Notes: a model not told the origin generated them from the sequence alone. A stretch of DNA of 38,557 nt from Herpetosiphonaceae bacterium (GCA_013538855.1 JABXJS010000071.1:1-38557); one strand, 5' to 3'. Positions 5,134 through 32,063 are shown, counted from the first letter of the stretch. Numbers and translations are program-made.

Positions 5134-5364
5134 ATGGATCAATCTTACCGCGACCGTATTACCATCGATCCCGGTAAACGCAGCGGCCACCCATGTATCC
5201 GCGGCCTGCGTATCACCGTCTACGATGTGCTGAGCTACCTGGCTGCTGGTATGACGCCCGATGAGATCGTAGCCGATTTCCCGCTGCTCACGCACGCTGA
5301 TATCCAGGCATGTCTGAGCTATGCAGCTGATCGTGAGCGCCAGCTCGTTCTATTAGCCGCATGA
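5134..5364 (+). CDS. DUF433 antitoxin-like protein
   Basis: A 76-aa protein of the DUF433 (VapB-like) family. It carries the family pattern ITIDPGKRSGHPCIRGLRIT followed by a helix-turn-helix-like half, DVLSYLAAGMTPDEIVADFP, with LTHADIQACLSYAADRE behind it. Such proteins commonly pair with PIN-like DUF5615 proteins as antitoxin and repressor (family knowledge). GAGGAGG stands about 8 nt before the ATG, and the stop codon overlaps the next start as ATGA, so the two genes are translationally coupled. It probably binds and neutralises the downstream protein and represses the pair, which I infer from the arrangement and not from any visible operator. Confidence 0.85.
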   Translation: MDQSYRDRITIDPGKRSGHPCIRGLRITVYDVLSYLAAGMTPDEIVADFPLLTHADIQACLSYAADRERQLVLLAA

Positions 5365-5711
5365 AATTACTATTTGACCATAATGTCTCGCCGCGATTGG
5401 TTCAGCGTCTTGGTGATCTTTCTCCAGACAGCACGCATGTGGTGCTGGTTGGACTTGAGACAGCCAATGATCGGGTCGTATGGCAGTTTGCTGCTGATCA
5501 TGGTTATACCATCGTGACTAAAGACACTGACTTCAACGATCTGGCAGTGCTGCTTGGGACACCACCCAAAATTATCTGGCTTCGGCTTGGGAACTGTACC
5601 ACGCATGTGATTGAGCACACGCTGCGGGCCACATGGGATACATTACAGACCTTTATAGATGATCCGGAGGCCGGATTGCTTCTCGTGCCAATGGTACCGA
5701 CAAACCAGTAA
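5361..5711 (+). CDS. DUF5615 PIN-like toxin component
   Basis: A 116-aa protein beginning MKLLFDHNVSPRLVQRL, the hallmark of DUF5615/COG4634 PIN-like proteins, with acidic positions D6 and the later TKDTDFNDL expected to form the metal-binding nuclease-like site. The segment IIWLRLGNCTT is another family signature. It is the predicted RNase or toxin partner of the DUF433 protein, whose coding region it overlaps by four bases. Toxicity has not been generally shown for this family, so 'toxin' is an inference from context. The strong hairpin at 5741-5778 terminates the pair. Confidence 0.85.
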   Translation: MKLLFDHNVSPRLVQRLGDLSPDSTHVVLVGLETANDRVVWQFAADHGYTIVTKDTDFNDLAVLLGTPPKIIWLRLGNCTTHVIEHTLRATWDTLQTFIDDPEAGLLLVPMVPTNQ

Positions 5712-7519: not shown

Positions 7520-7984
7520 TTAATCCTCTGTACTTGGGGCAATAAGCGAATGGGATTGCGCCACCTGCACCAGGGCGCGCAGGCCCTGCTCAAGTGCGCT
7601 GAGCTGCTCGGCGCTGAGCTGCTCGATCCAGCTGTATAAAAGCGAAAGGCTGCCTTGGCGCAGGCGAGTGACGCGCTGCTGCCCAAGCGCCGAGAGACAA
7701 ATCCATGTGTAGCGGCGGTCGTTGCTATCGACGGTGCGCTCGGCCAGATCGGCGCGCACAAGCTTGTCCACCAGATGGCTGGCGGTGGGCAGGCTTACGC
7801 CAAGCGTCTCGGCGATTTGGCCGATTGAGACCTGCTCGGCTTGGCCGATGGCGAACATCGCCTTGAGCTGCGCCATCGACACGTCCAACTCCAGCCAGTC
7901 GCTGAAGGTGGCGCGGTGCACGCTGCGGTAGACCTCGCGGTACATATCGGCAATGGTTTTAATGTGATCGTCTGGCTGACTCAT
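7520..7984 (-). CDS. MarR-family transcriptional regulator
   Basis: A 154-aa winged-helix regulator. The DNA-binding part reads VSIGQIAETLGVSLPTASHLVDKLVRADL followed by the wing ERTVDSNDRRYTWICLS, and helices at both ends would form the dimer interface. The start chosen at 7984 (MSQPDDHIK) has GAGGTG about 6 nt upstream; a longer frame exists to 8035 but runs through the promoter. As the first gene of a two-gene unit with the MFS exporter, it most likely represses its own promoter and is relieved by a compound that the exporter removes (family knowledge plus context). Confidence 0.93.
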   Translation of the reverse strand: MSQPDDHIKTIADMYREVYRSVHRATFSDWLELDVSMAQLKAMFAIGQAEQVSIGQIAETLGVSLPTASHLVDKLVRADLAERTVDSNDRRYTWICLSALGQQRVTRLRQGSLSLLYSWIEQLSAEQLSALEQGLRALVQVAQSHSLIAPSTED

Positions 7985-8006
7985 AGAAACACCTCGATTT
8001 CTATTC

Positions 8007-8044
8007 AATATAATGAAAGTGTTGGTGTTTGTCAAACAGTTTGA
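8007..8044 (-). promoter_or_regulatory. marR-MFS promoter with overlapping palindromic operator
   Basis: Read on the minus strand, TTGACA (8035-8030) and TATATT (8012-8007) are separated by exactly 17 nt, a near-consensus sigma-70 promoter. The palindrome TCAAACAGTTTGA (8032-8044) overlaps the -35 hexamer, a position expected for a repressor site. It lies 23-60 nt upstream of the MarR start codon. Confidence 0.75.
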
Positions 8045-8104: not shown

Positions 8105-9076
8105 CTAGGCGCGGCTGGGCTGATCGCGGCCGAGGATGCGCTCCAGCGCCATGTGCGGCGAGGCGACGGTGTTCAGCTCCTGCAGGTCGATGTCCTCGCT
8201 GACGAGCGTGGTGGCGATGGTCGGGGCGATGCCGCTGAGGATGACCTCGACGCCGAGCAGACGCAGGCCGCGGTAGAGCGTGAGCAGCTGCTGGGCGCTG
8301 GCGCGGTTGAGCTGGCTGAGGCCGCTGATGTCGAGGATCATGGTGCTGATGTGCTGGTCGGCGGCGGCGCGCAGCAGGCGGCCAGTCAGCGTCTTGGCGC
8401 GCTCGGGGTCCAGATAGCCGATGATCGGGGCCAGCAGCACGCCTGCGGCCACCTCGACCGTCGGCGTCTCCAGGGCGGCGACGAGGGCGAGCAGCTGCTC
8501 CTGGCGCTGGTTCTGCGCCCGCAGCGCGCTGGTCTGCTCAGCCAGCTCCTCGGCGTACTGCACGCTGGTTGCCTGCTCACGCTCGGCGCTGCGCTGGGCC
8601 TGCTGGCTGGCGCGCTGGGCCTGCTCCAGCATCAAGCGCCCTAGACAGAGCACGGAGGCGACAAAGAGGTAGGCGACGATATGATCTGGCTGCGCGTACA
8701 CGCCTGTGCCGCCAGCGCGAATCTCCAGCACGGCCAGCACGCCAGCGGTGATCGCCAGCGTCCAGGGCACGTTGGTGGTGATCAGGGCCAGCGCCAGCGG
8801 TGCAAAGACCATCGGCGACAGCGACTTATCGCGCGTGGGCGTGATCAGGAAAAACATCGTGACGAGCGCCATGAGCGCGAGGTTGATGTAGGCGGCCCAG
8901 TGCCAGCCGCGCCAGTGGAAGAAGCCCAGCAGCACCACCAGCGGCAGCGCAATGCATAGGCCGATCAGCGCCTCTGGATCATTATCGATCATGAGAATTG
9001 CGCCAAGCCCAAGGAGTCCAAGCAGCAGCTCGAGTGAAAAAACAACGAGCAGCACATTGCGCTGAGAGAATTGCAT
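8105..9076 (-). CDS. Membrane STAS-domain protein, paralog 1
   Basis: A 323-aa protein. Residues 1-160 hold about six membrane helices, followed by a Gln/Glu/Ala-rich coiled coil (EQAQRASQQAQRSAEREQ) and a C-terminal STAS domain (about 205-315). The STAS part is of the stressosome RsbR type: VLLAPIIGYLDPERAKTL, ILDISGLSQLN and LLGVEVILSGIAP. Such domains relay signals through protein contacts and Ser/Thr phosphorylation; by my alignment from memory the first regulatory Thr of RsbR is replaced by Arg here, while the second (IATT) is kept. It is the last of three tandem paralogs (gaps of 17 and 34 nt), so probably co-transcribed with them. No RsbS, RsbT or PP2C gene is nearby. Likely a membrane sensor; the signal is unknown. 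Confidence 0.85.
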   Translation of the reverse strand: MQFSQRNVLLVVFSLELLLGLLGLGAILMIDNDPEALIGLCIALPLVVLLGFFHWRGWHWAAYINLALMALVTMFFLITPTRDKSLSPMVFAPLALALITTNVPWTLAITAGVLAVLEIRAGGTGVYAQPDHIVAYLFVASVLCLGRLMLEQAQRASQQAQRSAEREQATSVQYAEELAEQTSALRAQNQRQEQLLALVAALETPTVEVAAGVLLAPIIGYLDPERAKTLTGRLLRAAADQHISTMILDISGLSQLNRASAQQLLTLYRGLRLLGVEVILSGIAPTIATTLVSEDIDLQELNTVASPHMALERILGRDQPSRA

Positions 9077-9093
9077 GGATGCCTGCCTTCTTG

Positions 9094-10101
9094 CTAGAGC
9101 ATACGCTGCTCGCTGGGAGCTGCCGCTCGTTGGAGCGACGCAGAATCGGGCTGCGCCAGCAGCTGGGCCAGCGCGATATGCGGCGATGGCACTGTTTGAA
9201 TGGCCCTGAGGTCGATGTCCTCGCTGACGAGCGTGGTGGCGACCGCCGGGGCGATGCCGCTAAGGATAACCTCGACGCCGAGCAGACGCAGGCCACGGTA
9301 GAGCGTGAGCAGCTGCTGGGCGCTGGCGTGATCGAGCTGGCTAAGGCCGCTGATGTCAAGGATCATGGTGCTGACGTGCTGGTCGGCGGCGGCGCGCAGC
9401 AGGCGGCCGGTCAGCGTCTTGGCGCGCTCAGGGTCGAGATGGCCGATGATCGGGGCTAGCAGCACGCCTGCGGCCACCTGGATTGTTGGCGTCTCGAGCA
9501 CGGCGACAAGCGCGAGCAGCTGCTCCTGGCGCTGGTTTTGTGCCCGTAGCGCGCTGGCCTGCGCGGCCAGCTCCTCGGCGTACTGTATGCTCAGCGCCTG
9601 CTCACGCTCGGCGCTGCGCTGGGCCTGCTGGCTGGCGTGCTGCGCCTGCTCGAGCACAAGGCGGCTTAGGAAGAGTGCGCCTGATGTGAACAGATAGCCA
9701 ACGATCACATCTGGCTCGGCGTAGATGCCCACCCCAGCGGCGCGAATCTCCAGCACGGCCAGCACGCCAAGGCTGATCGCCAGCGTCCAGGGAATGCTGG
9801 TGGTGATCAGCGCCAGCGCCAGCGGCGCAAAGAGCATCGACGAGAGCGACGCATCGGTCTGCGGCGTGATCAGGAAAAAAACGGTCAGCAGCGTGATCAG
9901 CGCCAGGTTGATGAAGGCGGCCCAGCGCCAGCCGCGCCAGTGCAGCCAGGCCAGCAGCGCCACCAGCGGCAGCGCAGCGCCGACACCGAGCAGCGCTGGC
10001 AGATCGTCGGTGGAGATAAGCAGCGTCACCAGCCCGAGCGCGCCGAGACCAACCTCAAACAGCAGTAGTCCAAAGATAACATTGCGCTGGGTGAGTCGCA
10101 T
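9094..10101 (-). CDS. Membrane STAS-domain protein, paralog 2
   Basis: A 335-aa protein, very close to paralog 1 throughout: same helix pattern (QRNVIFGLLLFEVGLGALGLVT at the start), same coiled coil, and a nearly identical STAS domain (LLAPIIGHLDPERAKTL, ILDISGLSQLDHASAQQLL, SGIAPAVATTLVSEDIDL). The residue after the conserved Asp is His where RsbR has its first phosphorylated Thr, while the second Thr region (VATT) is kept. The C-terminus is about 15 residues longer (DSASLQRAAAPSEQRML). The ribosome-binding leader (GGCAGG before ATCCATG) matches that of paralog 1, so the duplication took the start region with it. It probably acts with its neighbours as a homo- or hetero-oligomeric membrane sensor (inference). 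Confidence 0.85.
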   Translation of the reverse strand: MRLTQRNVIFGLLLFEVGLGALGLVTLLISTDDLPALLGVGAALPLVALLAWLHWRGWRWAAFINLALITLLTVFFLITPQTDASLSSMLFAPLALALITTSIPWTLAISLGVLAVLEIRAAGVGIYAEPDVIVGYLFTSGALFLSRLVLEQAQHASQQAQRSAEREQALSIQYAEELAAQASALRAQNQRQEQLLALVAVLETPTIQVAAGVLLAPIIGHLDPERAKTLTGRLLRAAADQHVSTMILDISGLSQLDHASAQQLLTLYRGLRLLGVEVILSGIAPAVATTLVSEDIDLRAIQTVPSPHIALAQLLAQPDSASLQRAAAPSEQRML

Positions 10102-10135
10102 GGATGTACCTGCCTTGTTCAGTAAGGTGCTGGCG

Positions 10136-11089
10136 CTAGCGCGCTTGAGCGAGCAGCTGGGCTAGGGCGATATGCGGCGATGGCACCGTTGCAACAGCGT
10201 GCAGATCGACCTGCTCGTTCACGAGAATTGCAGCAACATCAGGGCCGATGCCGCTGATGATCACGTTGGTGCCTAGCAGCTGCAGCGCCTGCTGTAGCCG
10301 CAGCAGCTGCTGCGCACCAGCGCGGTCAAGCTGGTTGAGGCCGCTGATGTCGAGGATCATGGTGCTGATGCGCTGGTCGGCGGCGCTGTGCAGCAGGCGG
10401 CTGGTCAGCGTCTTGGCGCGCTCAGGATCGAGATAGCCGATGATCGGGGCCAGCAGCACGCCCTCGGCCACCTGCACCGTCGGCGTCTCCAAGGCGGCAA
10501 CGAGTGTGAGCAGCTGCTCCTGGCGCTGATTTTGGGCGCGCAGCACGTCGGTCTGCGCGGCTAGCTCCTGGGCGTAGCGCTCGCTGTTGGTGCGCTCGGT
10601 CTGGAGCGTTGCCAGCGTGCTGAATGTAGCGGCGCTCGATAGCTCAAACAGCCGTCGGCCCAGAAACAGGCTGCCAGCGGTGAGCACGTACAGCAGAATG
10701 TTCGTGGCATCAAGATACGGCGCGTAGTAGCCGGTCTTGATCAGCGCGCCAAGGTAGACCAGCGCTGCCGTGATCAGCACAAACAGCGAGTCGGTGAGCA
10801 CCAGCGCCAGCGCCATGGGCACAAAAATAATCGGTGCGAGCGTGTTCTGTCGCGTATCTACGAGCACACCAGCGATCACTGTGGCGATAATCAGCACGTT
10901 GACGGCGGCGGCCCAGCGCCAGCCGCGCCAGTACAGCCAGGCCAGCCCGCCGAGCAGCGGCAGCGTGCCGATGAGCACAATGGATGCGGTTGTGTCGGCA
11001 TTGACGAGCGCCTCGATGAGGCCGCCCAGACCGGTCACGATCTCCAGGGCAAACAGCGCCAGCGTCAGGTTCCGTTGCGTGAGCTGCAT
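10136..11089 (-). CDS. Membrane STAS-domain protein, paralog 3 (most divergent)
   Basis: A 317-aa protein, first gene of the three-gene STAS unit. The membrane half has diverged strongly from the other two (IEALVNADTTASIVLIGTLP, TGYYAPYLDATNILLYVLTA) while keeping six helices. The coiled coil lacks the AQRASQQAQ repeats. The STAS domain is still recognisable (APIIGYLDPERAKTLTSRLL, ILDISGLNQLDRAGAQQLL), but the segment equivalent to IATT is VAAI, so neither of the two RsbR regulatory Thr positions is present. This suggests that the sensor halves were specialised after duplication while the interaction domain was conserved. A promoter with an inverted repeat lies directly upstream. Confidence 0.85.
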   Translation of the reverse strand: MQLTQRNLTLALFALEIVTGLGGLIEALVNADTTASIVLIGTLPLLGGLAWLYWRGWRWAAAVNVLIIATVIAGVLVDTRQNTLAPIIFVPMALALVLTDSLFVLITAALVYLGALIKTGYYAPYLDATNILLYVLTAGSLFLGRRLFELSSAATFSTLATLQTERTNSERYAQELAAQTDVLRAQNQRQEQLLTLVAALETPTVQVAEGVLLAPIIGYLDPERAKTLTSRLLHSAADQRISTMILDISGLNQLDRAGAQQLLRLQQALQLLGTNVIISGIGPDVAAILVNEQVDLHAVATVPSPHIALAQLLAQAR

Positions 11090-11173: not shown

Positions 11174-11220
11174 CGCGCTGTCGATCACCTGTGAGGCTGC
11201 TAGACGTATGGGTTCCTGGC

Positions 11221-11419
11221 GGATGTTGCTAGGCGTGGGCTGTGCGGTCGTGTGTGCATAGGTCTGGGGCGGGCTATGTGCGCGGCGCAGGTGGCGTGCC
11301 TCCTCGCTTGCAGGTGACTTGGCGGCCTGCGATATCTGCTGGTGGATGCTGCTAGGCGTGGGCTGTGCGGTCGTGTGTGCATAGGTCTGGGGCGGGCTAT
11401 GTGCGCGGCGCAGGTGGCG
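11221..11419. repeat. 76-bp direct repeat, two copies, 123-bp period
   Basis: The segments 11221-11296 and 11344-11419 are identical except for one T/C difference (GGATGTTGCT versus GGATGCTGCT). The period of 123 bp is a multiple of three, and a minus-strand frame across it would encode a repeated RHLRRAHSPPQTYAHTTAQ. That frame overlaps the end of ettA, has no ribosome binding site I trust, and looks non-coding. The repeat lies downstream of ettA and upstream of the STAS promoter. Confidence 0.85.
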
Positions 11420-14793: not shown

Positions 14794-14859
14794 AGTGTAC
14801 AGCGCGAATCTTAATAGGCAATTAACCAATTGGTCGAGCTTATTAACTTTTGCTATACT
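14794..14859. promoter_or_regulatory. Divergent promoter region, SpoIID-like gene and SARP regulator
   Basis: Plus strand: TTGGTC (14830-14835), an 18-nt spacer and TATACT (14854-14859) point to the regulator gene. Minus strand: TTGCCT (14821-14816), 16 nt and TACACT (14799-14794) point to the SpoIID-like gene. The perfect palindrome ACCAATTGGT (14825-14834) overlaps the plus-strand -35. These are candidate elements read by eye. Confidence 0.45.
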
Positions 14860-14922
14860 AGTTGCGCAGTGTTGCCCACCCCCGCAGGCGGCGCTGATGC
14901 CCATAGGCCTGAAGGAGATACT

Positions 14923-17900
14923 ATGGTAGTGCATCCCCAACCACGCGATCTCGTCATTGAATTACTTGGGCACTTCCAGATACGGCTAGGCGATCCGGCG
15001 GCAGAATCCCATACATGGCGCAAACAGAAGCCGCGCCAGCTCTTTGCGCTGTTGGTCAATGCCCCCTATCTGCGTTTACCGCGCAGTGAAGTGTATGCTC
15101 ATCTCTGGCCCGACCATCCGAATCCCGGCAATAATCTGCATGTAACCATTCACCATCTGCGCAAGCTCTGCGACGAGCTGCCAACGCCAGATATCGATAT
15201 TCAGCTCTCCACCGAGCAGGTCATTCTCCAGCTGCCCGAGCATGTCTGGCTGGATGTGCGCGTGTTCGATGAGGCGGCGCGCGCGCTGCTGCAGCACGGC
15301 GGCGAGCCAAGCGAGTTTCGCGATGTGCTGGCGCTATACCGCGGCCCGTTTCTGCCTGATGACGAGGCTGAGCTATGGACGCTGGCGCTGCGCGAGCATC
15401 TGGCGCAGCTGTTTGCCCAGCTTACGCTGGCCTACGCCGATCTGCTCGCCCGCCACGATGCGCAAAGCGCCAGCGACGCGCTGCAGCGCCTGATCTCGTT
15501 TGATCCGACCCACGAGGGTGCCGTTGCGCGCCTGATGCTGCTCGCACAGCGTCAAGGCCAGCGCGCCATGGTTCAGGCGCTCTACGATCAGCTGCGCGAG
15601 GCGCTGGCCACCCGGCTGGACCTTGAGCCAATGGAGATGACCGAGCAGATCGCCGCCGCCTGCCTCCACGATCAGGTCAAGGATCTGCCGCTGGTCGACT
15701 GGGGCCTGCTCAACTATCGCGAGCGCCTGCGCACGCAGCTGCCGTTTGTGCCCGTGCAGGAGGCCCCGATTGGCCGCGAGGAGCAGCTGGAAGCCATTCT
15801 TGCCGCCGTTGATGATATTCCGCGCGGGCACGGCGGCTGCATCGGCATCGCTGGCTCCGCTGGCATGGGCAAGCTCCAGCTGGCCCACGCGGCGCTGACG
15901 CGGCTCTATACTCAGGACTGGATCATCATCGCCGGGCGGCCGCTGGCCTCCGATCGCACGCTGGCCTACGAGCCGCTGATCGAGGCGCTCGCTGAGTACC
16001 TGCGCTGGAGTCCGCCGCTCAAGCTCGACAACCTCGCCGAGGCCGCGATGATCCAGCTGCTCGGGCCAGCGGTGCCCGAGGACTGGCGGCCCGCCGATCC
16101 GCCAGCGCGCATCGACAGCCAGAGCCTGCTTTTTCTGGGCCTCATGCGCTTGCTGGAGGCGATCTCGCAGCATGGCCCGGTGGCCGTCTTTATCGATGAT
16201 GTGCACCGCGCCGATCCCGACACGCTTGAGTTTTTAATTTTTCTCTCGCGCCGCCTGGGCACGCTGCGCATTTTGTTCTTGCTCACCTATCGGCCCGAAG
16301 AGGTGGACATGACCGGCGCTGGCATTCAGTACTGGCAGGAGGGCGTGCGCCAGGGCCTCATCCACGTGTTCACGCTCAAGCCGCTCGATCGCGCCGCTTG
16401 TCTGCGGCTCCTCGCGACGCTGGATCGCCCGCTGCCGCCTGCGCTCGCCGAGCAGCTGATCGAGCGCAGTGGTGGCAACCCCTTCTTTTTGCGCGAGCTT
16501 GGGCGCTATGTGAGCACAAATCAGGCGCTCGATGCCGCCGATGTAGGCCGCTCCGCCCTGCCACAGGCCATCCTCGACGCTGTGCAGACCCGCGTCAGCC
16601 GGTTGAGCACGGCGGCGCGCGCGGCGCTGGAGGTGGGCGCGGTGGCCATGCCCTACTGGACGGCGGATCTCATTGAGCATGCCCAGCATATGGCTCCCAG
16701 CGTCGTCGAGCGCGCGATCGAGGAGCTGCTGGCGGCGCAGCTCATCCGCGAGGCTGGCTACGGACTCGCCATCCGCCAGTCACTGGTGCAAGAGGTGCTC
16801 TACCGCCATATGTCGCGGCCGCGCCGCCTGCGCCTGCACGGCCTTGTCGCTGAGTACCTGGTGCAGCAAGGCGATATTCCGCCCGCCCCGATCTGGTACC
16901 ATCTGACGCAGGCCGAGGCCAGCGAGGAGCGCCAGCCGCTGCTGATCGAGTATGGTCTGCTGGTTGCCGAGCAGGCGCTTGAAAAGGCCGCCGACGACGA
17001 GGCCCGCCGCGCCTACGAGCAGGTGCTGGCTGTGCTGGAGGCCAGCGGCGGCGCTCCAGAGCAGTGGATCATGACGCTGTTTGGGTTGGCGCGCCTGACG
17101 TTCCGCCACGCGCAATACCCAGAGTCGCGCCAGTACTGCGAGCGCGTCGCCGAGTGGACGCAGGATCGCCCGCTCGACGAGTGCGAGCGCCGCAACCACC
17201 TGGGCTGGCTCGACTATCGTATATCGCACTTGGCGGCGGCGCGCGAGCACTTCGAGGCGGTGCACAAAATGGCTCCCCTGCACAGCCGCCAGTGGGTTGA
17301 GGCCCAAGTTGGCGATGCGGTGATCCTCTTTGTGTACGGGCAGGTCAGCACGGCCAAAGCGCTGATCGAAGAGGCGATGCCCTACTTTGACCTGGCGCAT
17401 CCCAGCGTGGTGCAGGCGCGTGGTCTGTTTCTGGCTGGTAGCATCGCCTTCGACGACGGCGATCGCACGCTGGCCAACTCGTTTTTTGATCGCTCGATTG
17501 AGCACGCCGAGCAGGCCGGTGATCTGCTCTACAGCGCCCTGATGCGCACCAACCTTGCCAACACGCTGGTGCGCAGCGGCGAGCTACGCACCGCGCAGAC
17601 GCTGGTTCAGGAGGCGCTTAAGGTCAGCACGGAGCTGGGCAATCGCGACTATGAGGGTATTCAGTACGCTTATTTGACCTGGGTTTCGATGGCGCTCGGT
17701 GAGCTGACGACGGCGATCGAATACTATCACAAGGCCATCGCCCGGCTTGAGGAGATCAACAATATCGAGCTGCACTGCGATGTGCTCACGATGCGCGCGA
17801 TTGTCGCCCGCGCCCAGCGCGATTGGGCCACAGCCCAGCAGCTGCTGCACGAGACGCTGGAGTTGATTGGTGATAAGCCCTACATGCGCTCCAAGGTCGA

Positions 17901-18483
17901 TGTGTACCACGAGCTGGTTATGCTCGCGCTCTATGGTCCCCAGCGCGATCTCGCCAAGGCCGCCGAGTACGCCGAGCTCGGCCTGGCCGCCGGACGCAAC
18001 AGCGGCCACAGCGACTCGCTGGCGCTGAGCCTACTGGCCCAGGCCGAGCTACAGAGTGCCCAGGGCCGCCCAATCGAGGCCGCAACCACCGCCTACGAGG
18101 CGGTTGCCATTCTCAAACGCCAAGGCATTGGCCTGACGCTGATCGATGGCTATCTCACGCTGACGCGCATCGCGCTGGCCAGCGCCGATCTGACCTTGGC
18201 GCGCACCGAGCTGGAGAAGGCCAAGGCGCTGGCGCTGCAGTACGAGGCCGGCATGGCCTACGCGCACGCCGTCGCCCTTGGTGCCGAGCTGGAGTCGCGC
18301 CGCGAGCACTCGCAGCAGTCGCGCGAGACCGACGACTACAATGAGGACTGGCTGGAGCCGATTTTGACCGGCCATCAGAGCCTCGCCGAGCGCGCACGCG
18401 AGCTAGGCGTGTCGCGCACGGCTCTGCGCCGCGCCTACCACCGCTACCAGCAGACGCTCACCGAGCTTTCGCCAGAGGAGTAG
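14923..18483 (+). CDS. AfsR/SARP-like regulator: wHTH-BTAD, NTPase, TPR, C-terminal HTH
   Basis: A 1186-aa cytoplasmic regulator. An N-terminal winged helix (about 9-90, with HTWRKQKPRQLFALL and EVYAHLWPDHPNPGNNLHVT) and a BTAD helical domain (about 108-245, LYRGPFLPDD to TRLDLEP) are followed by an AAA_16/STAND ATPase starting at GREEQL (about 284). Walker A is GSAGMGKLQ at 311-319, with Leu in place of the usual Ser/Thr after Lys; Walker B is VFIDDVHRAD at 422-431. About 500 residues of TPR-like helices follow. The tail (LAERARELGVSRTALRRAYHRY) is a second helix-turn-helix. The ATG at 14923 follows AAGGAGA closely. It probably integrates a ligand signal into promoter activation; the targets are unknown. 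The divergent SpoIID-like gene is one possibility. Confidence 0.88.
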   Translation: MVVHPQPRDLVIELLGHFQIRLGDPAAESHTWRKQKPRQLFALLVNAPYLRLPRSEVYAHLWPDHPNPGNNLHVTIHHLRKLCDELPTPDIDIQLSTEQVILQLPEHVWLDVRVFDEAARALLQHGGEPSEFRDVLALYRGPFLPDDEAELWTLALREHLAQLFAQLTLAYADLLARHDAQSASDALQRLISFDPTHEGAVARLMLLAQRQGQRAMVQALYDQLREALATRLDLEPMEMTEQIAAACLHDQVKDLPLVDWGLLNYRERLRTQLPFVPVQEAPIGREEQLEAILAAVDDIPRGHGGCIGIAGSAGMGKLQLAHAALTRLYTQDWIIIAGRPLASDRTLAYEPLIEALAEYLRWSPPLKLDNLAEAAMIQLLGPAVPEDWRPADPPARIDSQSLLFLGLMRLLEAISQHGPVAVFIDDVHRADPDTLEFLIFLSRRLGTLRILFLLTYRPEEVDMTGAGIQYWQEGVRQGLIHVFTLKPLDRAACLRLLATLDRPLPPALAEQLIERSGGNPFFLRELGRYVSTNQALDAADVGRSALPQAILDAVQTRVSRLSTAARAALEVGAVAMPYWTADLIEHAQHMAPSVVERAIEELLAAQLIREAGYGLAIRQSLVQEVLYRHMSRPRRLRLHGLVAEYLVQQGDIPPAPIWYHLTQAEASEERQPLLIEYGLLVAEQALEKAADDEARRAYEQVLAVLEASGGAPEQWIMTLFGLARLTFRHAQYPESRQYCERVAEWTQDRPLDECERRNHLGWLDYRISHLAAAREHFEAVHKMAPLHSRQWVEAQVGDAVILFVYGQVSTAKALIEEAMPYFDLAHPSVVQARGLFLAGSIAFDDGDRTLANSFFDRSIEHAEQAGDLLYSALMRTNLANTLVRSGELRTAQTLVQEALKVSTELGNRDYEGIQYAYLTWVSMALGELTTAIEYYHKAIARLEEINNIELHCDVLTMRAIVARAQRDWATAQQLLHETLELIGDKPYMRSKVDVYHELVMLALYGPQRDLAKAAEYAELGLAAGRNSGHSDSLALSLLAQAELQSAQGRPIEAATTAYEAVAILKRQGIGLTLIDGYLTLTRIALASADLTLARTELEKAKALALQYEAGMAYAHAVALGAELESRREHSQQSRETDDYNEDWLEPILTGHQSLAERARELGVSRTALRRAYHRYQQTLTELSPEE

Positions 18484-25160: not shown

Positions 25161-26268
25161 CTCGACGCTGCGCGAGGGCGAGCAGTTCGCCTACGCTGCA
25201 TTCTCGACGGCTGACCGCCTGGCTATCGCCGAAGCGCTCGATGCCTTCGGCGTCGACTATATCGAAGTTACCTCGCCCTGCGCCTCGCCTCAGACCGAGG
25301 CCGACCTCCGCGCCATCGCCGCGCTGCCGCTGCACCACGCTCGTATCTTAACCCACACTCGCTGTGTCCTCGATGATGTGCGCCGCGCTGTTGACTGCGG
25401 CGTCGCAGGCGTCAATCTGCTCTTTGGCACCTCGGACCTGCTGCGCACCCACAGCCACGGCCGCTCTGTGGCCCAGATCATCGAGCAGGCTGCCAGCGTG
25501 ATCGACTTTCTGCGCACGCAGCACGTCGAGGTGCGCTTCTCTTGCGAGGACGCCTTCCGCACGCCGCTGCCCGATCTGCTGCGCATCTATCAGGCGGTCG
25601 ATGCGCTTGGCGTTCAGCGCGTCGGCATCGCCGATACCGTTGGCATCGCCACGCCGCGTGCGGTGGAGCACATCGTTGGCGCGGTGCGCGGGGCCGTGCG
25701 CTGCGCCATCGAGTTCCACGGCCACAACGACGGCGGCTGTGCGGTGGCCAATGCCTACGCGGCGCTGGAGGCGGGCGCAACCTACATCGACACCACCATC
25801 CTCGGCATCGGCGAGCGCGTGGGCATTACGCCGCTCAGCGGCCTGATCGCCCGGCTCTACCTCAGTGATCCGGCGCTGGTGGCGCGCTACGCCATCGACC
25901 AGCTCGCCGCGCTCGATCAGATGCTGGCTGAGCGCTTGGGCATCGAGGTGCCCTTCAACGCCTGCATTACTAGCGCCACCGCCTTCACGCACAAGGCGGG
26001 CCTACACGCCAAGGCGGTGCTCGCCGAGCCTGCAACCTACGAGGTGCTTAATCCCAGCGTCTTTGGCCGCGATCGCTCTGTGCTCATCGGGCATCGCCTG
26101 ACTGGGCGACGTGCGCTGGCGGCGCGGGCGGCTGAGCTGGACCTGCACCTGTCGGAGGCGGAGCTAGGGGCGGTGACGGCGCGGCTCAAGCAGGCCGCCG
26201 ATCTGCGCCCGCTGTCGCTGGATGAAGTTGATGCGCTGCTGCGGGCCGCCGCGCCCCAGGCCGCTTAG
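25132..26268 (+). CDS. lys20: Homocitrate synthase
   Basis: A 378-aa TIM-barrel enzyme condensing acetyl-CoA and 2-oxoglutarate to homocitrate, the first step of the alpha-aminoadipate lysine pathway. The N-terminus MQINAVAIVDSTLREGEQF contains the DSTLREGEQ catalytic/metal motif of the DRE-TIM family; IEVTSPCASPQ and the HxH metal ligands in EFHGHNDGG follow. The C-terminal part has TAFTHKAGLHAKAV, shared with homocitrate and isopropylmalate synthases. The absence of a long C-terminal LeuA regulatory domain favours homocitrate synthase, as does the operon. ATG 25132 follows GGGAGGA with suitable spacing; an in-frame TTG at 25102 is a less likely start. First structural gene of the operon; feedback inhibition by lysine is typical of the family. 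Confidence 0.93.
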   Translation: MQINAVAIVDSTLREGEQFAYAAFSTADRLAIAEALDAFGVDYIEVTSPCASPQTEADLRAIAALPLHHARILTHTRCVLDDVRRAVDCGVAGVNLLFGTSDLLRTHSHGRSVAQIIEQAASVIDFLRTQHVEVRFSCEDAFRTPLPDLLRIYQAVDALGVQRVGIADTVGIATPRAVEHIVGAVRGAVRCAIEFHGHNDGGCAVANAYAALEAGATYIDTTILGIGERVGITPLSGLIARLYLSDPALVARYAIDQLAALDQMLAERLGIEVPFNACITSATAFTHKAGLHAKAVLAEPATYEVLNPSVFGRDRSVLIGHRLTGRRALAARAAELDLHLSEAELGAVTARLKQAADLRPLSLDEVDALLRAAAPQAA

Positions 26269-26278
26269 GAGAGCAACA

Positions 26279-27562
26279 ATGCCAACATTTGCTGAACAAA
26301 TTTTGAGCCGCGCCGCTGGCCGTCCAGTCGTGGCCGGCGAGAACGTGGTGGTCGATGTCGATCTCGTGATGCTGCACGACAGCCTCGCGCCAAGCATCAT
26401 CGATGTGCTGCACAACCAGCTGGGCGCTGAGCGCGTGTGGAATCCCGCGCAGGTGGCGGTGGTCATCGACCACGTGGCCCCGGCGGCCACGGTGCGCCAG
26501 GCCGAGCAGCAGCAGCAGGTGCGCCGCTGGGTGCGCGCCCAGAGCATCCCCAACCTCTTCGATGTCGGGCGCGGCATCTCACACCAGGTGCTGATCGAGG
26601 AGGGCTTGGCGCGGCCGGGCATGCTGGTGGTCGGCAGCGACTCGCACAGCACAGGCTACGGCGCGGTGGCCGCCTTTGGCACCGGCATGGGCACCACCGA
26701 CATCGCCCTGGCGCTGGCCACTGGGCAAACCTGGCTGCGCGTGCCGGAGACGGTGCGCATTCACGCGCACGGCCGCTTTCAGCCTGGCGTCAGCGCGAAG
26801 GACCTGGGCCTATGGGTCGCCCGGCAGCTGCGCGCCGACGGAGCCACCTACGCCAGCGTCGAGTGGCACGGCCTGGACTTTCTGGCCTGGGGCGACCGCA
26901 TGACGCTGGCGACGCTCTCGATTGAAGTTGGCGGCAAGGCGGGCATTGTGGCCCCGGCTGGATTAACCAGCGCTGATGTTCCAAGCTGGCTCAGGGTTGA
27001 TCCGCAGGCCAGCTACGCCCGCACGCTGGAGTGCGACCTAGCGACCCTCGCGCCGCAGATCAGCGTGCCGCACACCGTGGACAACGTGGTTGATCTGACG
27101 GACGTGGGCCGCGTGGCCGTCGATGTGGTCTACCTGGGCACCTGCACCAACGGGCGCTACGCCGATATGGCGGCGGCGGCGCAGATACTACGCGGGCGGC
27201 GGCTGGCCCCCGGCGTGCGCATGATCGTGGTGCCTGCGTCGAGCATGGCCCTGGAGCAGGCGGCGGCGGACGGGACGCTGGCGACGCTGCTCGCCGCTGG
27301 CGCGACGCTGGGCACGCCGGGCTGCGGCGCGTGCATTGGCCGCCACATGGGCGTGCTGGCCCCCGATGAGGTCTGTGTCTTCACCGGCAACCGCAACTTC
27401 CGCGGCCGTATGGGCAGCCCTGGCGCACACATCTACCTGGCCTCGCCTGAGGTGGCCGCCGCCAGCGCGCTAACTGGCTATCTGACGCATCCGCGCGAGG
27501 TGGTGGCCGACTGGCCGCTGGCCGATGTGCGCACGCCCGCCGCTGCTGCGGCGCTGGCCTAG
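26279..27562 (+). CDS. lysT: Homoaconitase large subunit
   Basis: A 427-aa catalytic subunit of the heterodimeric aconitase-type enzyme that converts homocitrate through cis-homoaconitate to homoisocitrate. The three cysteines for the 4Fe-4S cluster are visible in YLGTCTNGRYADM and GTPGCGACIGRHMGVL. Other family signatures are VGSDSHSTGYGAVAAFGTG near residue 120 and FTGNRNFRGRMGSPGAHIYL near the end. ATG at 26279 with AGGAGA upstream, 10 nt after the lys20 stop. It is homologous to LeuC, but its place between lys20 and hicd argues for homoaconitase. It needs the small subunit encoded next. Confidence 0.92.
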   Translation: MPTFAEQILSRAAGRPVVAGENVVVDVDLVMLHDSLAPSIIDVLHNQLGAERVWNPAQVAVVIDHVAPAATVRQAEQQQQVRRWVRAQSIPNLFDVGRGISHQVLIEEGLARPGMLVVGSDSHSTGYGAVAAFGTGMGTTDIALALATGQTWLRVPETVRIHAHGRFQPGVSAKDLGLWVARQLRADGATYASVEWHGLDFLAWGDRMTLATLSIEVGGKAGIVAPAGLTSADVPSWLRVDPQASYARTLECDLATLAPQISVPHTVDNVVDLTDVGRVAVDVVYLGTCTNGRYADMAAAAQILRGRRLAPGVRMIVVPASSMALEQAAADGTLATLLAAGATLGTPGCGACIGRHMGVLAPDEVCVFTGNRNFRGRMGSPGAHIYLASPEVAAASALTGYLTHPREVVADWPLADVRTPAAAAALA

Positions 27563-27582
27563 CTTGTAGAAGGAGGCTTCCC

Positions 27583-28083
27583 ATGGCTCGCATTTGGATG
27601 TTTGGTGCCGATGTGAACACCGATCAGATTGTGCCTGGCCGCTATGCGCCGTACATGCTCAGCGCTGGCGATGATCTGCGGCGCTACCCGTTTGTCGAGG
27701 CGCGGCCCGACTTCGCGCCCAGCGTGCAGCCTGGTGATCTGATCGTGGCTGGCCCGAATTTTGGCTGCGGCTCCAGCCGCGAGTACGCCCCGCTGGCGCT
27801 GAAGCTTGTCGGCGTTGGGGCGATTATCGCCCCGCTGTTTGCGCGCATCTTCTATCGCAATGCGCTCAATCTTGGTATTCCCTGCTTCACGGCCGATCTG
27901 CGTGCGCAGCTGCGCGATGGCGATCAGGTTGATTTCGACCTGGCGACTGGCACGCTGACGCTGGCGGATGGCACGCTGCTTAATCTGCCTGCGCCGCCTG
28001 CCTTTATGCGCGCGGTGTGGGCCGAGGGCGGCATCGTGCCCTACTATCGGCGCTACGGGCGCTTTCCAGGAGCGGCGCAATGA
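27583..28083 (+). CDS. lysU: Homoaconitase small subunit
   Basis: A 166-aa LeuD-like swivel-domain subunit. The substrate-specificity loop and signature read [17 protein letters not shown], followed by [20 protein letters not shown], both typical of the small subunit. It starts at ATG 27583 with GGAGG upstream, 20 nt after lysT. Its stop codon overlaps the ATG of the homoisocitrate dehydrogenase gene (ATGA), indicating translational coupling. Together with LysT it isomerises homocitrate to homoisocitrate in the cytoplasm. It is distinct from the lysyl-tRNA synthetase also named lysU in E. coli. Confidence 0.92.
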
Positions 28084-29081
28084 GCACGATCTGCCTTATT
28101 CCCGGCGATGGCATCGGGCCAGAGGTGCTGGCATCCGCCCGCCAGGTGCTCACAGCGCTGGCGCTGCCGCTGGAGTTTATCGCGGCCGAGGCGGGCTGGG
28201 CCACCTTCGAGCGCTGTGGCAGCGCGCTGCCTGCGGCGACGCTGGCAGCGGTGCAGGCGGCTGACGCAACCTTGTTCGGCGCGGTCGGCTCGCCATCGCA
28301 GCGCGTTGAGGGCTACCGTAGCCCGATTGTCGAGCTGCGCCGCGCCCTCGATCTGTTCGCCTGCATGCGGCCGGTGCGCACTCCCGCGCTGCCACAGGCG
28401 CGGCCCAACGTCGATCTCGTGGTCATCCGCGAGAACACCGAGGGCCTGTACAGCGGCCTGGAGCAGCGCGACACCGACCGCGCCACCACAACACGGGTGA
28501 TCACTCGCGCCGCCAGCCAGCGCATCGTCGGCTGGGCCGTCAACTACGCCCGCGCCCACCAGCGCCACCATATCACCGTGGTGCACAAGGCCAATGTGCT
28601 GCGCGAGACCTGCGGTCTCTTCCGCGAGACGGCGCTGGCGGTGCTGGCCGACGCGCCGGACATTCAGTGGAACGAGCTGCTGGTCGATAACGCCGCCTAT
28701 CAGCTGGCCCGCACACCTGAGCAGTTCGACATCATCGTGACCACCAATATGTTCGGCGATATCTTGTCGGATGTCGCCAGCGTCTGGGGCGGCGGCCTGG
28801 GCCTGGCGGCGTCGGCCAACTATGGCCCGCGCACGGCGATTTTTGAGCCAGTGCACGGCAGCGCCCCCGACATCGCCGGGCGGCAGCGCGCCAACCCGCT
28901 GGCCACGCTCAGCGCCGCTGCGCTCATGCTGGAGCACCTGTACTACCTTGCGGCGGCTGAGCGGCTGCGCCAGGCGATCAACCACGTGCTGCGCCACGGC
29001 CCGCACACGCCCGACCTCGCTGGCTCGGCCAGCACCGCCGACGTAACCACCGCGATCATCCATCTTTTAAATGATAGATAA
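28080..29081 (+). CDS. hicd: Homoisocitrate dehydrogenase
   Basis: A 333-aa beta-decarboxylating dehydrogenase that oxidises homoisocitrate to 2-oxoadipate with NAD+. The start [16 protein letters not shown] is the conserved N-terminus. Substrate loop residues lie in SPSQRVEGYRSPIVELRR, followed by RENTEGLYSGLEQR, the catalytic Lys region VVHKANVLRETCGLF, and the metal-binding acidic motif NMFGDILSDVASVWGGGLGL. The pattern resembles Thermus homoisocitrate dehydrogenase, though isocitrate or isopropylmalate activity may also occur as in other members. It begins at ATG 28080, overlapping lysU by four bases. The next enzyme, alpha-aminoadipate aminotransferase (LysN), is not in this window. Confidence 0.92.
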   Translation: MSTICLIPGDGIGPEVLASARQVLTALALPLEFIAAEAGWATFERCGSALPAATLAAVQAADATLFGAVGSPSQRVEGYRSPIVELRRALDLFACMRPVRTPALPQARPNVDLVVIRENTEGLYSGLEQRDTDRATTTRVITRAASQRIVGWAVNYARAHQRHHITVVHKANVLRETCGLFRETALAVLADAPDIQWNELLVDNAAYQLARTPEQFDIIVTTNMFGDILSDVASVWGGGLGLAASANYGPRTAIFEPVHGSAPDIAGRQRANPLATLSAAALMLEHLYYLAAAERLRQAINHVLRHGPHTPDLAGSASTADVTTAIIHLLNDR

Positions 29082-29092
29082 GGAGACCTGCA

Positions 29093-29272
29093 ATGACAAC
29101 GCTTTTGACTGCTCTCTGCCCGGAATGTGCCGGCGCGCTCGACCTACCGACCGATCTGCTGGAGGGCGAGATCGTGCCCTGCGCCGACTGCGGTGCCGAC
29201 CTTGAGGTGCTGACGCTGCGCCCGCTAGAGCTGGCCCTGGCCCCCGAGATTGAAGAGGACTGGGGCGAGTAG
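29093..29272 (+). CDS. lysW: LysW, amino-group carrier protein
   Basis: A 59-aa acidic carrier protein. Four cysteines form a zinc ribbon (C9-x2-C12 in CPEC and C30-x2-C33 in CADC). The C-terminus EEDWGE matches the invariant EDWGE tail, whose terminal glutamate side-chain carboxyl is joined to the amino group of alpha-aminoadipate. LysW then presents the intermediate to LysX, LysY, LysZ, LysJ and LysK, protecting the amino group as an acetyl group does in arginine synthesis. AAGGAGA precedes the ATG; it starts 11 nt after hicd and ends 28 nt before lysX. It is easily missed because of its size, but the tail and context make it certain. Confidence 0.96.
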
Positions 29273-29300
29273 CTTCGCCCTCAGCTGCAAGGAGGATGCT

Positions 29301-30176
29301 ATGCGGATTGGGATGCTGTGCGCGCGGATTCGCGTTGAAGAAAAGCTCTTGCTGGCTGCCTTTGCTGAGCGCGGGGTCGATGTCGAGCGCATCGACGATG
29401 ACACCCTGTGCTTTGATCTGAACGCCATGCAGGCCGACCGCGCTGCGGCGCGTGAGCGCTGGCCGCAGCTGGTGCTGGAGCGCTCGCTGGCCTTTGGGCG
29501 CTCGCTGTACAGCCTGCAGGTGCTCAACGCTGCCGGGATCGACACAATCAACTCGTATGCGGCGGTGGCGACCTGTGGCGACAAATTCTTAACCACCCAG
29601 GCGCTGCTGCAGGCTGGTCTGCCCACGCCGCGCTGTCGGCTGGCCTTTACGCCAGCAGCGGCGCTGACGGCCATCGAGGAGCTAGGCTACCCGGCGGTGC
29701 TCAAGCCTGTCGTCGGCTCGTGGGGCCGCATGGTCGCCCGCGTCAACGACCGTGACGCCGCCGAGGCCGTGCTGGAGCATCGTGCGCAGCTCGGCGGCTA
29801 CCAGCACAGCATCTTCTACATTCAAGAGTACATCGCCAAGCCCGCTGGCCGCGACATCCGCGCCTTTGTCGTTGGCGACGAGTGCATCGCGGCGATCTAT
29901 CGCACCAGCGCCCACTGGATCACCAACACCGCGCGCGGTGCCCAGGCCAGCAACTGCCCGGTCACGCCGCAGCTCGCCGACCTGTGTCTCGGTGCGGCGC
30001 AGGCTGTTGGCGGTGAGATCGTCGCCATCGATCTGTTTGAGACCGCCGACGGGCGCTGGCTGATCAACGAGATCAACCACTCGATGGAGTTTCGTAACAG
30101 CATCGCCACCACCGGCGTAGACATTCCCGGCCGCATCGCCGACTATGCGCTGACCCGCGCCAGGAGGGCCGCATGA
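29301..30176 (+). CDS. lysX: Alpha-aminoadipate-LysW ligase
   Basis: A 291-aa ATP-grasp ligase (RimK-like) that couples the alpha-amino group of aminoadipate to the C-terminal Glu of LysW with ATP. Visible family features are [18 protein letters not shown] (start of the ATP-grasp fold), [18 protein letters not shown] (nucleotide-binding lysine and Gly-rich loop), [20 protein letters not shown], and the metal/substrate end [15 protein letters not shown]. The NHSMEF segment is as in LysX proteins acting on aminoadipate, although ArgX and LysX are hard to separate by eye. It starts at ATG 29301 with AAGGAGG, and its stop overlaps the lysY ATG. Confidence 0.94.
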
Positions 30177-31204
30177 TTGCTGTTTCGATTGCTGGTGGCT
30201 CTGGCTATGTCGGTGGCGAGCTGCTGCGCCTGCTCCTGGCGCATCCGCACGTGCGCATTCAGCAGGTCACAAGCGAGCGCAGCGCCGGTCAGTTCGTGCA
30301 CAGCACCCACCCGAATCTGCGCGGGCGCACGGAGCTGCGCTACACAGCGCTGAGCGCTCTAGAGCCGTGTGATGTGCTGATTTTGGCCCTGCCGCATGGC
30401 CGCGCCGCTGCGCAGATCGAGCGCTGGGCGGGCCTGGCCGAGCGCATCATCGACTGCTCGGCCGACTTTCGCCTACGTGATGCCGACGCCTATGCGCGCT
30501 GGTACGGTCAGCCGCACCCAGCCCCCGCATGGCTCGACCGCTTCGTCTATGGGCTGCCCGAGGTCGAGCGCACACGCCTGCGCACAGCGCGCTATGTGAG
30601 CGGTGTTGGCTGCAATGCCACGGCGGTCAATCTGGCGCTGCTGCCGCTGGTGCAGGCCGAGCTGCTTGATACGGCGCGACCAATTGTGGCCGAGGTCAAG
30701 GTTGGCTCCTCCGAGGGCGGCGCAGGCGGCTCGGATGCCAGCCATCACCCAGAGCGGGCTGGGGTTGTGCGCTCGTTTGCGCCGGTTGGCCACCGCCATA
30801 CCGCCGAGATCACGCAGATCACCGGGCTAGAGGTGGACCTGTCGATCACGGCGGTCGAGCTGGTGCGCGGGGCTATGGCGACATGCCATGCCTGGGTGCG
30901 GCCGGGCCTCAGCGAGCGCGAGCTATGGCGCGCCTACCGGGCTGCGGCCAGCGATCAGCCGTTTATGCGCATCGTCCACGAGCGCAGTGGGATGTATCGC
31001 CATCCTGAGCCAAAAATCCTGGCGGGCAGCAACTACGCCGATATCGGCTGGGCCTTTGATGCTGCGCGTGGCCGCGTGGTCGCGCTCTGCGCCATCGACA
31101 ACCTGATGAAGGGCGCAGCCGGCAGCGCGGTGCAGTGTCTCAACCTGATGCACGATTGGCCCGAGACGACGGCGCTAGAGTTTTTTGGTCTGCACCCAGC
31201 CTAG
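30173..31204 (+). CDS. lysY: LysW-aminoadipyl-phosphate reductase
   Basis: A 343-aa ArgC-like NADPH-dependent reductase that reduces LysW-gamma-aminoadipyl 6-phosphate to the semialdehyde. The N-terminal Rossmann motif is [15 protein letters not shown], and the catalytic cysteine lies in [18 protein letters not shown], where ArgC proteins usually have PGCYPT; GCNAT is the LysY variant. The segment [20 protein letters not shown] is the conserved loop. Translationally coupled to lysX by a 4-base overlap, followed after 58 nt by lysZ. The gene order X-Y-Z follows function: ligation, then reduction and phosphorylation on the carrier. Confidence 0.93.
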
Positions 31205-31262
31205 CCTGCGCTCGGCGCGACCATGCCCGCGCTCGAAGATGATTTGGTATAAGGAGACGCAG

Positions 31263-32063
31263 ATGCTTGTTGTTAAGATCGGCGGTGCGGCGGGGATCGA
31301 CTACACGCCGCTGTGCGCCAACATCGCTGAGCTACACGCTGCCGGCGAGCGCATCGTGCTCGTCCATGGCGGGTCGGATGGTGCCAACCAGCTTGGCATG
31401 CGCCTCGACCACCCGCCGCGCTTTGTCAGCGCGCCATCCGGCCACGTCAGCCGCTACACCGACCGCCAGACGCTGGAGATTTTTATGATGGCGACGGCGC
31501 TGCTGAATCGCCAGCTCGTGGAGCAGCTTGCTGGCCTCGGTCTGCCCGCCCTCGGCCTCTCGGGCCTTGATGGCGGCCTGCTGCGCGGACGGCGCAAGGA
31601 CACGATTCGCATTGTTGAGGACGGCCGCCAGCGCATCTTGCGCGACGACTGGACCGGCACTGCGCATACCGTCAACACGCCGCTGCTGACCACCCTGCTT
31701 GATGCTGGCTATCTGCCTGTGATCGCTCCGCTGGCCGTCAGCGCTCACGGCGAGGCGCTGAACATCGACGCCGATCGTGGCGCGGCGCTGCTGGCTGGCG
31801 CGCTGGGAGCCGCAGCGCTGGTGCTGCTCACCAACGTGCCGGGCCTGCTGCGCGACGTGTACGATCCAACAGCTCTGATCACGCATATTCCTGCCGCTGA
31901 GCTGGAGCAGTTCCAGCCGCTAGCGCACGGTCGCATGAAGAAGAAGCTGCTTGGTGCCGCCGAGGCCATCCAGGGCGGAGTGCCGCAGGTGGTGCTGGCC
32001 GATGGCCGTCGCCAGCAGCCGCTCAGCCGCGCACTGCGCGGAGAAGGGACGGTGATCGCATGA
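31263..32063 (+). CDS. lysZ: LysW-aminoadipate kinase
   Basis: A 266-aa member of the amino acid kinase family (ArgB-like) that phosphorylates the side-chain carboxylate of LysW-bound aminoadipate. It begins LVVKIGGAAGIDY with the nucleotide-binding Lys and Gly loop; VLVHGGSDGANQLG, GLSGLDGGLLRGRRK, NIDADRGAALLAGALGA and GRMKKKLLGAAEAIQGG follow in the usual order. The ATG at 31263 has AAGGAGA upstream; in-frame codons upstream lie in the intergenic region. Its stop overlaps the lysJ start (ATGA). The basic patch around GRRK may bind the acidic LysW globular part (inference from structural work on the family). Confidence 0.93.
   Translation: MLVVKIGGAAGIDYTPLCANIAELHAAGERIVLVHGGSDGANQLGMRLDHPPRFVSAPSGHVSRYTDRQTLEIFMMATALLNRQLVEQLAGLGLPALGLSGLDGGLLRGRRKDTIRIVEDGRQRILRDDWTGTAHTVNTPLLTTLLDAGYLPVIAPLAVSAHGEALNIDADRGAALLAGALGAAALVLLTNVPGLLRDVYDPTALITHIPAAELEQFQPLAHGRMKKKLLGAAEAIQGGVPQVVLADGRRQQPLSRALRGEGTVIA

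Follow-up and report, generated by a model that had tools for sequence, protein, structure and literature searches.

The question raised by a 38,557-nucleotide stretch of DNA from a Herpetosiphonaceae bacterium (GCA_013538855.1 JABXJS010000071.1:1-38557; the whole stretch is referred to below as the window) is whether three adjacent genes at positions 8105-11089, encoding membrane proteins with a STAS domain of the type found in the stressosome protein RsbR, provide inputs to a stressosome or form a sensory assembly of another kind. An initial annotation had proposed an undescribed assembly without a stressosome partner. The reading that we favour, with a probability of roughly 55%, is that the trio represents membrane-embedded RsbR-type stressosome sensor subunits which cannot be phosphorylated by RsbT at the usual sites.

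All three genes are complete open reading frames on the minus strand. Paralog 3 (P3, 317 amino acids, 10136-11089) is transcribed first, followed after 34 bp by paralog 2 (P2, 335 amino acids, 9094-10101) and after a further 17 bp by paralog 1 (P1, 323 amino acids, 8105-9076), a tandem duplicate of P2. Each protein consists of six transmembrane helices, a coiled coil and an RsbR-type STAS domain, as had been noted initially and as is borne out by the Pfam STAS matches and the structural model of P2 described below. P1 and P2 share 74% identity (membrane half 62%, coil 89%, STAS domain 86%), the unit of the tandem repeat is 1025 bp, and the leaders of the two genes are similar immediately before the ATG, which confirms the proposed duplication, leaders included. 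The identity between P1 and P3 is 50% over the whole protein, being 36% in the membrane half, 57% in the coil, and 70% in the STAS domain; the paralogs are therefore related throughout their length and not in the coiled coil alone. The membrane half of P3 is the most diverged, with 35–36% identity to those of P1 and P2 as compared with 70–73% for the STAS domain, so that the description of P3 as having kept its STAS domain next to a diverged membrane half also stands. The trio forms a single clade on the phylogenetic tree (support 100/93), and the similarity of the paralogs is thus not due to chance.

The Pfam STAS domain was matched by P1–P3 near residues 203-294, with E-values of 3.6e-12 to 2.9e-14. 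The best profile for the STAS half was of the RsbR/YtvA type (YtvA_fam, 9e-21 to 3e-23), against 2e-3 to 0.03 for SpoIIAA, and the best solved matches of the P2 model in Foldseek and VIA searches were the Listeria stressosome (RsbR) and Bacillus subtilis RsbS. The trio keeps 22-23 of the 36 signature positions that define soluble RsbRs in this analysis, while 25 are kept by Vibrio vulnificus RsbR, 20 by YtvA, 16-17 by RsbS, and 4-12 by RsbV-type proteins. Profile, fold and signature positions place the RsbR/YtvA-type STAS domain at residues 206-316 of P2 (9154-9486, minus strand), the equivalents being located at 8129-8461 in P1 and about 10148-10480 in P3. The RsbR/YtvA profile was clearly above those of SpoIIAA and transporter-linked STAS domains, either of which, if better aligned, would have spoken against the RsbR-type assignment made initially. 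Membership in three established families was considered and rejected: the SpoIIAA/RsbV anti-anti-sigma factors (spore_II_AA, 14.6-17.9 bits against a cut-off of 114.75, with an RsbR-like residue pattern in the trio), the SulP/SLC26 transporters (14.6-17.1 bits against 380, E-values of 0.0015-0.008, STAS part only), and the YtvA family (NF052652, 74-83 bits against 250, again in the STAS part only, with no LOV domain). No transporter domain was detected in P1–P3 by the Pfam scan.

The trio shares the general plan of the RsbRs of B. subtilis (RsbRA), Listeria (RsbR1) and V. vulnificus, in which a C-terminal RsbR-type STAS domain is linked by a long helix to a variable N-terminal sensor, many unlinked paralogues occur, and RsbS and RsbT are encoded in the same genome. 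However, six membrane helices make up the N-terminal half in place of the soluble globin-like domain of the studied RsbRs, and the trio, in which the usual phosphorylation sites are replaced, lies outside any rsbRST operon. YtvA, a LOV-STAS protein and a member of the B. subtilis stressosome, is the best NCBIfam match of the trio STAS domain and linker (about 1e-21), although the trio scores far below the family cut-off; both Thr sites are replaced in YtvA as well, but by Glu, and its sensor is a soluble LOV domain. The SulP/SLC26 proteins likewise have a membrane domain followed by STAS, but this is a large multi-helix transporter as opposed to six helices in about 150 residues, and the STAS profile match is marginal.

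Mapping of T175 and T209 of Listeria RsbR (T171 and T205 in B. subtilis) onto the trio by profile alignment revealed that both RsbR phosphosites are gone in P1, P2 and P3. The first (T171/T175) is replaced by Pro in all three proteins (codon 224 of P2, 9430-9432; 8405-8407 in P1; 10424-10426 in P3; all minus strand). At the second (T205/T209), there is His in P2 (codon 258, 9328-9330) and Arg in both P1 (8303-8305) and P3 (10322-10324), on the same strand. A third and otherwise conserved Thr, known from Listeria as T241 (PMC8942246), is retained in P1 and P2 and replaced by Ile in P3. The initial annotation had recognised the loss of a regulatory Thr but assigned Arg, His and Arg to the first site, whereas in the alignment to Listeria RsbR these residues occupy the second; similarly, the second Thr, considered lost in P3, is in fact lost in all three paralogs, and the loss confined to P3 is that of the third Thr. 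The presence of Thr or Ser at both sites is a typical but not a strictly defining trait of RsbR, and the trio does not show it. Since Listeria has RsbR1 paralogues without the Thr residues (PMC8942246), and the phosphodeficient Listeria RsbR variants T175A and T209A still assemble (PMC12154155), loss of the sites is no bar to stressosome membership.

The genome contains 55 STAS matches and about 48 RsbR-type proteins, about 27 of which have membrane segments. A stand-alone pair of genes for RsbS (127 amino acids) and an RsbT-like kinase (133 amino acids) was found on contig C80. The RsbS protein matches its B. subtilis counterpart at 5e-34 and keeps the phospho-Ser motif, while the best NCBIfam match of the kinase, spIIAB, is far below the cut-off, and its putative identification as RsbT rests on its size, on its being paired with RsbS, and on the 84-91% identity that it shares with its counterparts across the family. 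A stand-alone pair of this kind is also present in genomes G028 (locus L313) and G007 (locus L366); we take G028, G007 and G013, the latter considered below, to be Chloroflexus aurantiacus, Herpetosiphon aurantiacus and Roseiflexus sp. RS-1, respectively, and the family and order names used here rest on these assignments. On contig C168, a second RsbT-like gene adjoins that of an RsbX-like phosphatase, whose best solved matches were 3zt9 (5e-28) and RsbX (2e-10). The genome also has 17 matches to the SpoIIE-type phosphatase domain and several RsbW-like kinases. The earlier statement that RsbS, RsbT and RsbX are lacking nearby is therefore true of the locus only, and the conclusion that the trio has no stressosome partner is contradicted by the genes on C80 and C168 and by the number of RsbR-type proteins. 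On contig C156 (5886-9973), genes for a STAS protein, a HATPase-STAS fusion and a SpoIIE phosphatase are consecutive; this appears to be a distinct partner-switching locus resembling RsbV/RsbW, in which kinase and antagonist are fused.

The AlphaFold model of P2, based on 35 sequences and having a mean predicted local distance difference test score (pLDDT) of 86.7, comprises six membrane helices and then a STAS fold. The helices span residues 5-30, 34-55, 60-77, 84-100, 103-120, and 130-203; the last is unbroken, with pLDDT up to 98, its start forming the sixth transmembrane helix and the remainder the coiled coil. When the membrane module was modelled alone, the pLDDT was 86.6 and the helices were found at residues 5-30, 34-55, 60-78, 84-100, 103-121, and 130-154. 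In P2 the module comprises residues 5-152 (9646-10089, minus strand), with equivalents at 8621-9064 in P1 and about 10640-11077 in P3, and the signalling helix, continuous with the sixth transmembrane helix, comprises residues 153-205 (9487-9645, minus strand). No Pfam family was found for the membrane half, in which 35 members share R6, G57, and R147 without exception. Elsewhere in the Chloroflexota, this module occurs in fusions to histidine kinases, both PAS-containing and plain ones (L405-L410, E-values of about 1e-13 to 1e-42), and in a further protein with the module (L411) only the ATPase part is visible. The fusions to histidine kinases indicate a swappable signalling input, and the membrane half looks like an uncatalogued sensor module, a candidate for a new sensor domain family.

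A Foldseek search with the membrane half alone gave no significant match. In VIA-align, the module was aligned to the six-helix membrane domain of adenylyl cyclase AC9 with a Z-score of 13.9 and a root-mean-square deviation of 3.0 over 153 of 155 residues, and to Pseudomonas ImcA with a Z-score of 11.0, unrelated proteins reaching 8.8 and lower; as helical bundles align easily, the resemblance to AC9 is suggestive and may serve as a lead only. The quorum receptor CqsS and adenylyl cyclases of class III (AC9, Rv1625c/Cya) also have membrane domains of six helices, the last of which continues into a signalling helix before the cytoplasmic output, but no sequence similarity to them was found, and the output of the trio is a STAS domain rather than a cyclase or a kinase. 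A receptor function has been argued for the six-helix anchors of cyclases (PMC4821796).

The ratio of non-synonymous to synonymous substitutions between P1 and P2 was 0.32 for the STAS domain, 0.16 for the coil, and 0.49 for the membrane half, which is thus the fastest-evolving part. Synonymous divergence in the three pairs of paralogs was about two times lower in the STAS domain than in the membrane half (0.25 versus 0.59, 0.51 versus 1.21, and 0.49 versus 0.89), which hints that the output half may have undergone gene conversion while the sensor half diverged. Upstream of P3, the window carries an 81-nucleotide direct repeat (11216-11296 and 11339-11419, 98% identical, spacing 123), and these two copies were the only ones found in the genome.

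Full-length relatives of the trio were found in 47 of the 100 genomes searched, all belonging to the order Chloroflexales, and the named genomes with relatives include Roseiflexus, Chloroflexus, Oscillochloris, and Viridilinea. In the scan of named genomes, a query built from the three paralogs alone gave no match, while a broader alignment revealed 40 loci. Only partial matches, with less than 60% identity and none spanning 80% of the protein, were obtained in the plasmid collection. On the tree, the trio clade, a local expansion, lies inside a Herpetosiphonaceae clade (100/100), which in turn lies inside a family of 53 members (95/96). Ser or Thr is present at both sites in 29 of the 53, a distribution that requires at least seven changes of state; the Chloroflexus and Roseiflexus relatives mostly keep both sites, and none of the proteins in the Herpetosiphonaceae clade has retained the second. 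As the relatives are mostly phosphorylatable, the site loss is secondary, and the ancestor of the family was probably phosphorylatable. Such a family is what would be expected of true RsbRs, and this supports the assignment of the trio to the stressosome. In Roseiflexus- and Chloroflexus-type genomes (L136, L137, L143, L148, L141), a membrane RsbR gene overlaps an upstream gene for a STAS protein by 4 bp, and the pair appears to be a recurrent two-sensor operon.

RsbR-type proteins were counted in four genomes on the basis of STAS matches and the surrounding stretches, with proteins having at least two predicted segments counted as membrane ones; the segment counts are hydropathy-based and approximate. 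Membrane-anchored proteins outnumbered soluble ones in all four genomes: 27 and 20 in the genome under study, 29 and 16 in G007, 19 and 7 in G013, and 13 and 8 in G028. Both sites were kept by 7 membrane and 14 soluble proteins in this genome, 3 and 11 in G007, 13 and 7 in G013, and 7 and 7 in G028 (Fisher p-values of 0.0036, 0.0001, 0.15, and 0.17, respectively, which overstate the contrast because the proteins are related). For the Herpetosiphonaceae, represented by this genome and G007, this amounts to 10 of 56 membrane versus 25 of 36 soluble proteins, and the membrane proteins of the other two genomes keep both sites in 20 of 32 cases (p 4e-5 for the comparison with 10 of 56, likewise overstated owing to kinship). 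Treating the membrane/soluble contrast as statistically independent was rejected, since a tree-based test gave only two independent supported contrasts; the STAS tree requires at least eight changes of site state among the 56 membrane proteins. One could tentatively suggest that the stressosome of Chloroflexales is largely a transmembrane receptor system, having at least one sensor module in common with histidine kinases, and that in Herpetosiphonaceae it is a two-class assembly of silent membrane inputs and phosphorylatable soluble switches, perhaps arranged as a patch docked at the membrane and not as a free particle.

If the trio consists of stressosome subunits, the six-helix receptor module would sense something, possibly a ligand, in or across the membrane. 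We infer that each protein dimerises via the membrane module and the coil, presenting a STAS dimer in the cytoplasm, to which the sixth transmembrane helix, extended as a probably dimeric coiled coil, would carry the signal. The STAS domain would join an RsbS-RsbT core encoded elsewhere, and the proteins would enter RsbS-containing assemblies as sensor turrets, acting by conformation and composition, without phosphorylation at the usual sites, as proposed here by analogy with the Listeria RsbR1 paralogues. Switching would fall to phosphorylation of the RsbS Ser and to those soluble RsbRs in which the two sites are intact; the particle may be docked at the membrane or form a partial shell, although this is speculation. 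In Listeria, a sensor is proposed to be linked to the membrane by Prli42, but this is a separate miniprotein that binds soluble RsbR (PMC6614362), whereas in the trio the RsbR-type protein carries its own membrane domain; the physiological role of this proposed link is disputed (PMC6614362, PMC9840623).

Several observations weigh against placing the trio in a stressosome. No rsbS, rsbT or rsbX gene is present at the locus, so there is no physical linkage to rsbS/rsbT, and the two sites are replaced by Pro and Arg/His rather than by acidic mimics. The stressosome known from Bacillus and Listeria forms a closed particle whose sensor turrets cover every side, and few of them could reach the membrane together. 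A literature search found no stressosome experiment in Chloroflexota, nor any description of their membrane RsbRs, most subscription journals being outside the search. Finally, although an RsbT-like gene is present in all 47 genomes with the family, and the family in none of the 14 members of the order without RsbT (Fisher p-value of 2.5e-6, for which 13 rather than 14 RsbT-less genomes were entered), shared ancestry confounds this association, since one small-genome genus accounts for 11 of the 14, and it is suggestive rather than independent evidence for the stressosome reading.

Loss of both RsbT sites in the trio, and of the second one throughout the Herpetosiphonaceae clade, could alternatively reflect an escape from RsbT, the trio forming its own membrane STAS assembly or serving another partner independently of RsbS and RsbT. 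The SpoIIE-domain proteins and RsbW-like kinases listed above would be available for this role, and 13-14 of the 36 RsbR signature positions differ in the trio. However, the STAS domain is clearly of the RsbR and not the RsbV/SpoIIAA type, every genome found to have the family also has an RsbT-like gene, and the many unlinked RsbRs in the genome argue for a common core, which makes this explanation rather unlikely. We consider it less probable still that the paralogs are passive anchors or dampers that, as members of the stressosome, tie it to the membrane or lower its share of phosphorylatable RsbR, with no specific ligand. The rarity of intact sites in the membrane RsbRs of Herpetosiphonaceae as compared with the soluble ones would fit such a role, for which tethering by Prli42 provides a precedent (PMC6614362, PMC9840623), but conservation of the module, with its three invariant residues, and its reuse in histidine kinases point to sensing, and the divergence of the sensor halves of P1, P2 and P3 would be odd for mere anchors.

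The genes that follow the trio on the same strand, a MarR-MFS efflux operon with MarR starting about 120 bp past the last stop codon of the trio, suggest that the paralogs could be its local sensor. Yet a strong sigma-70-like promoter (TTGACA-17-TATATT, 11 of 12 positions; 8007-8035, minus strand) lies just upstream of MarR, so that MarR-MFS (5799-about 7984) is probably transcribed separately from the trio, and the pairing is not conserved, the examined loci of relatives lacking MarR and carrying MFS-like genes in two cases only. We know of no mechanism linking STAS proteins to MarR. A functional unit of the trio and MarR-MFS was rejected on these grounds, and a local sensor role is very improbable. 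The preferred reading of the trio as membrane RsbR-type inputs retains from the initial proposal the membrane-embedded RsbR-like sensor but not its lack of partners, an unlinked stressosome input being simpler than an undescribed assembly. For the question of how outside signals reach a stressosome, the membrane RsbR family is natural test material, and its versions with and without the RsbT sites could be used to establish whether phosphorylation of the sensor is needed.

As for the surroundings of the trio, the MarR open reading frame as listed (7520-8035) is over-long, its TTG start being the -35 box of the sigma-70-like promoter, and the true start is probably the ATG at 7984. A DUF5615 protein is encoded at 5361-5711 (1.6e-34); this PIN-like family often provides the toxin half of toxin-antitoxin pairs. 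On the other side of the trio, a large AAA-BTAD-TPR regulator of 1217 amino acids (14830-18483) is apparently unrelated to it. On the plus strand, at 26222-33238, genes for an aconitase-family protein, a LysX-type ATP-grasp protein, and a class III aminotransferase lie close together, resembling a LysW-type amino-acid biosynthesis cluster.

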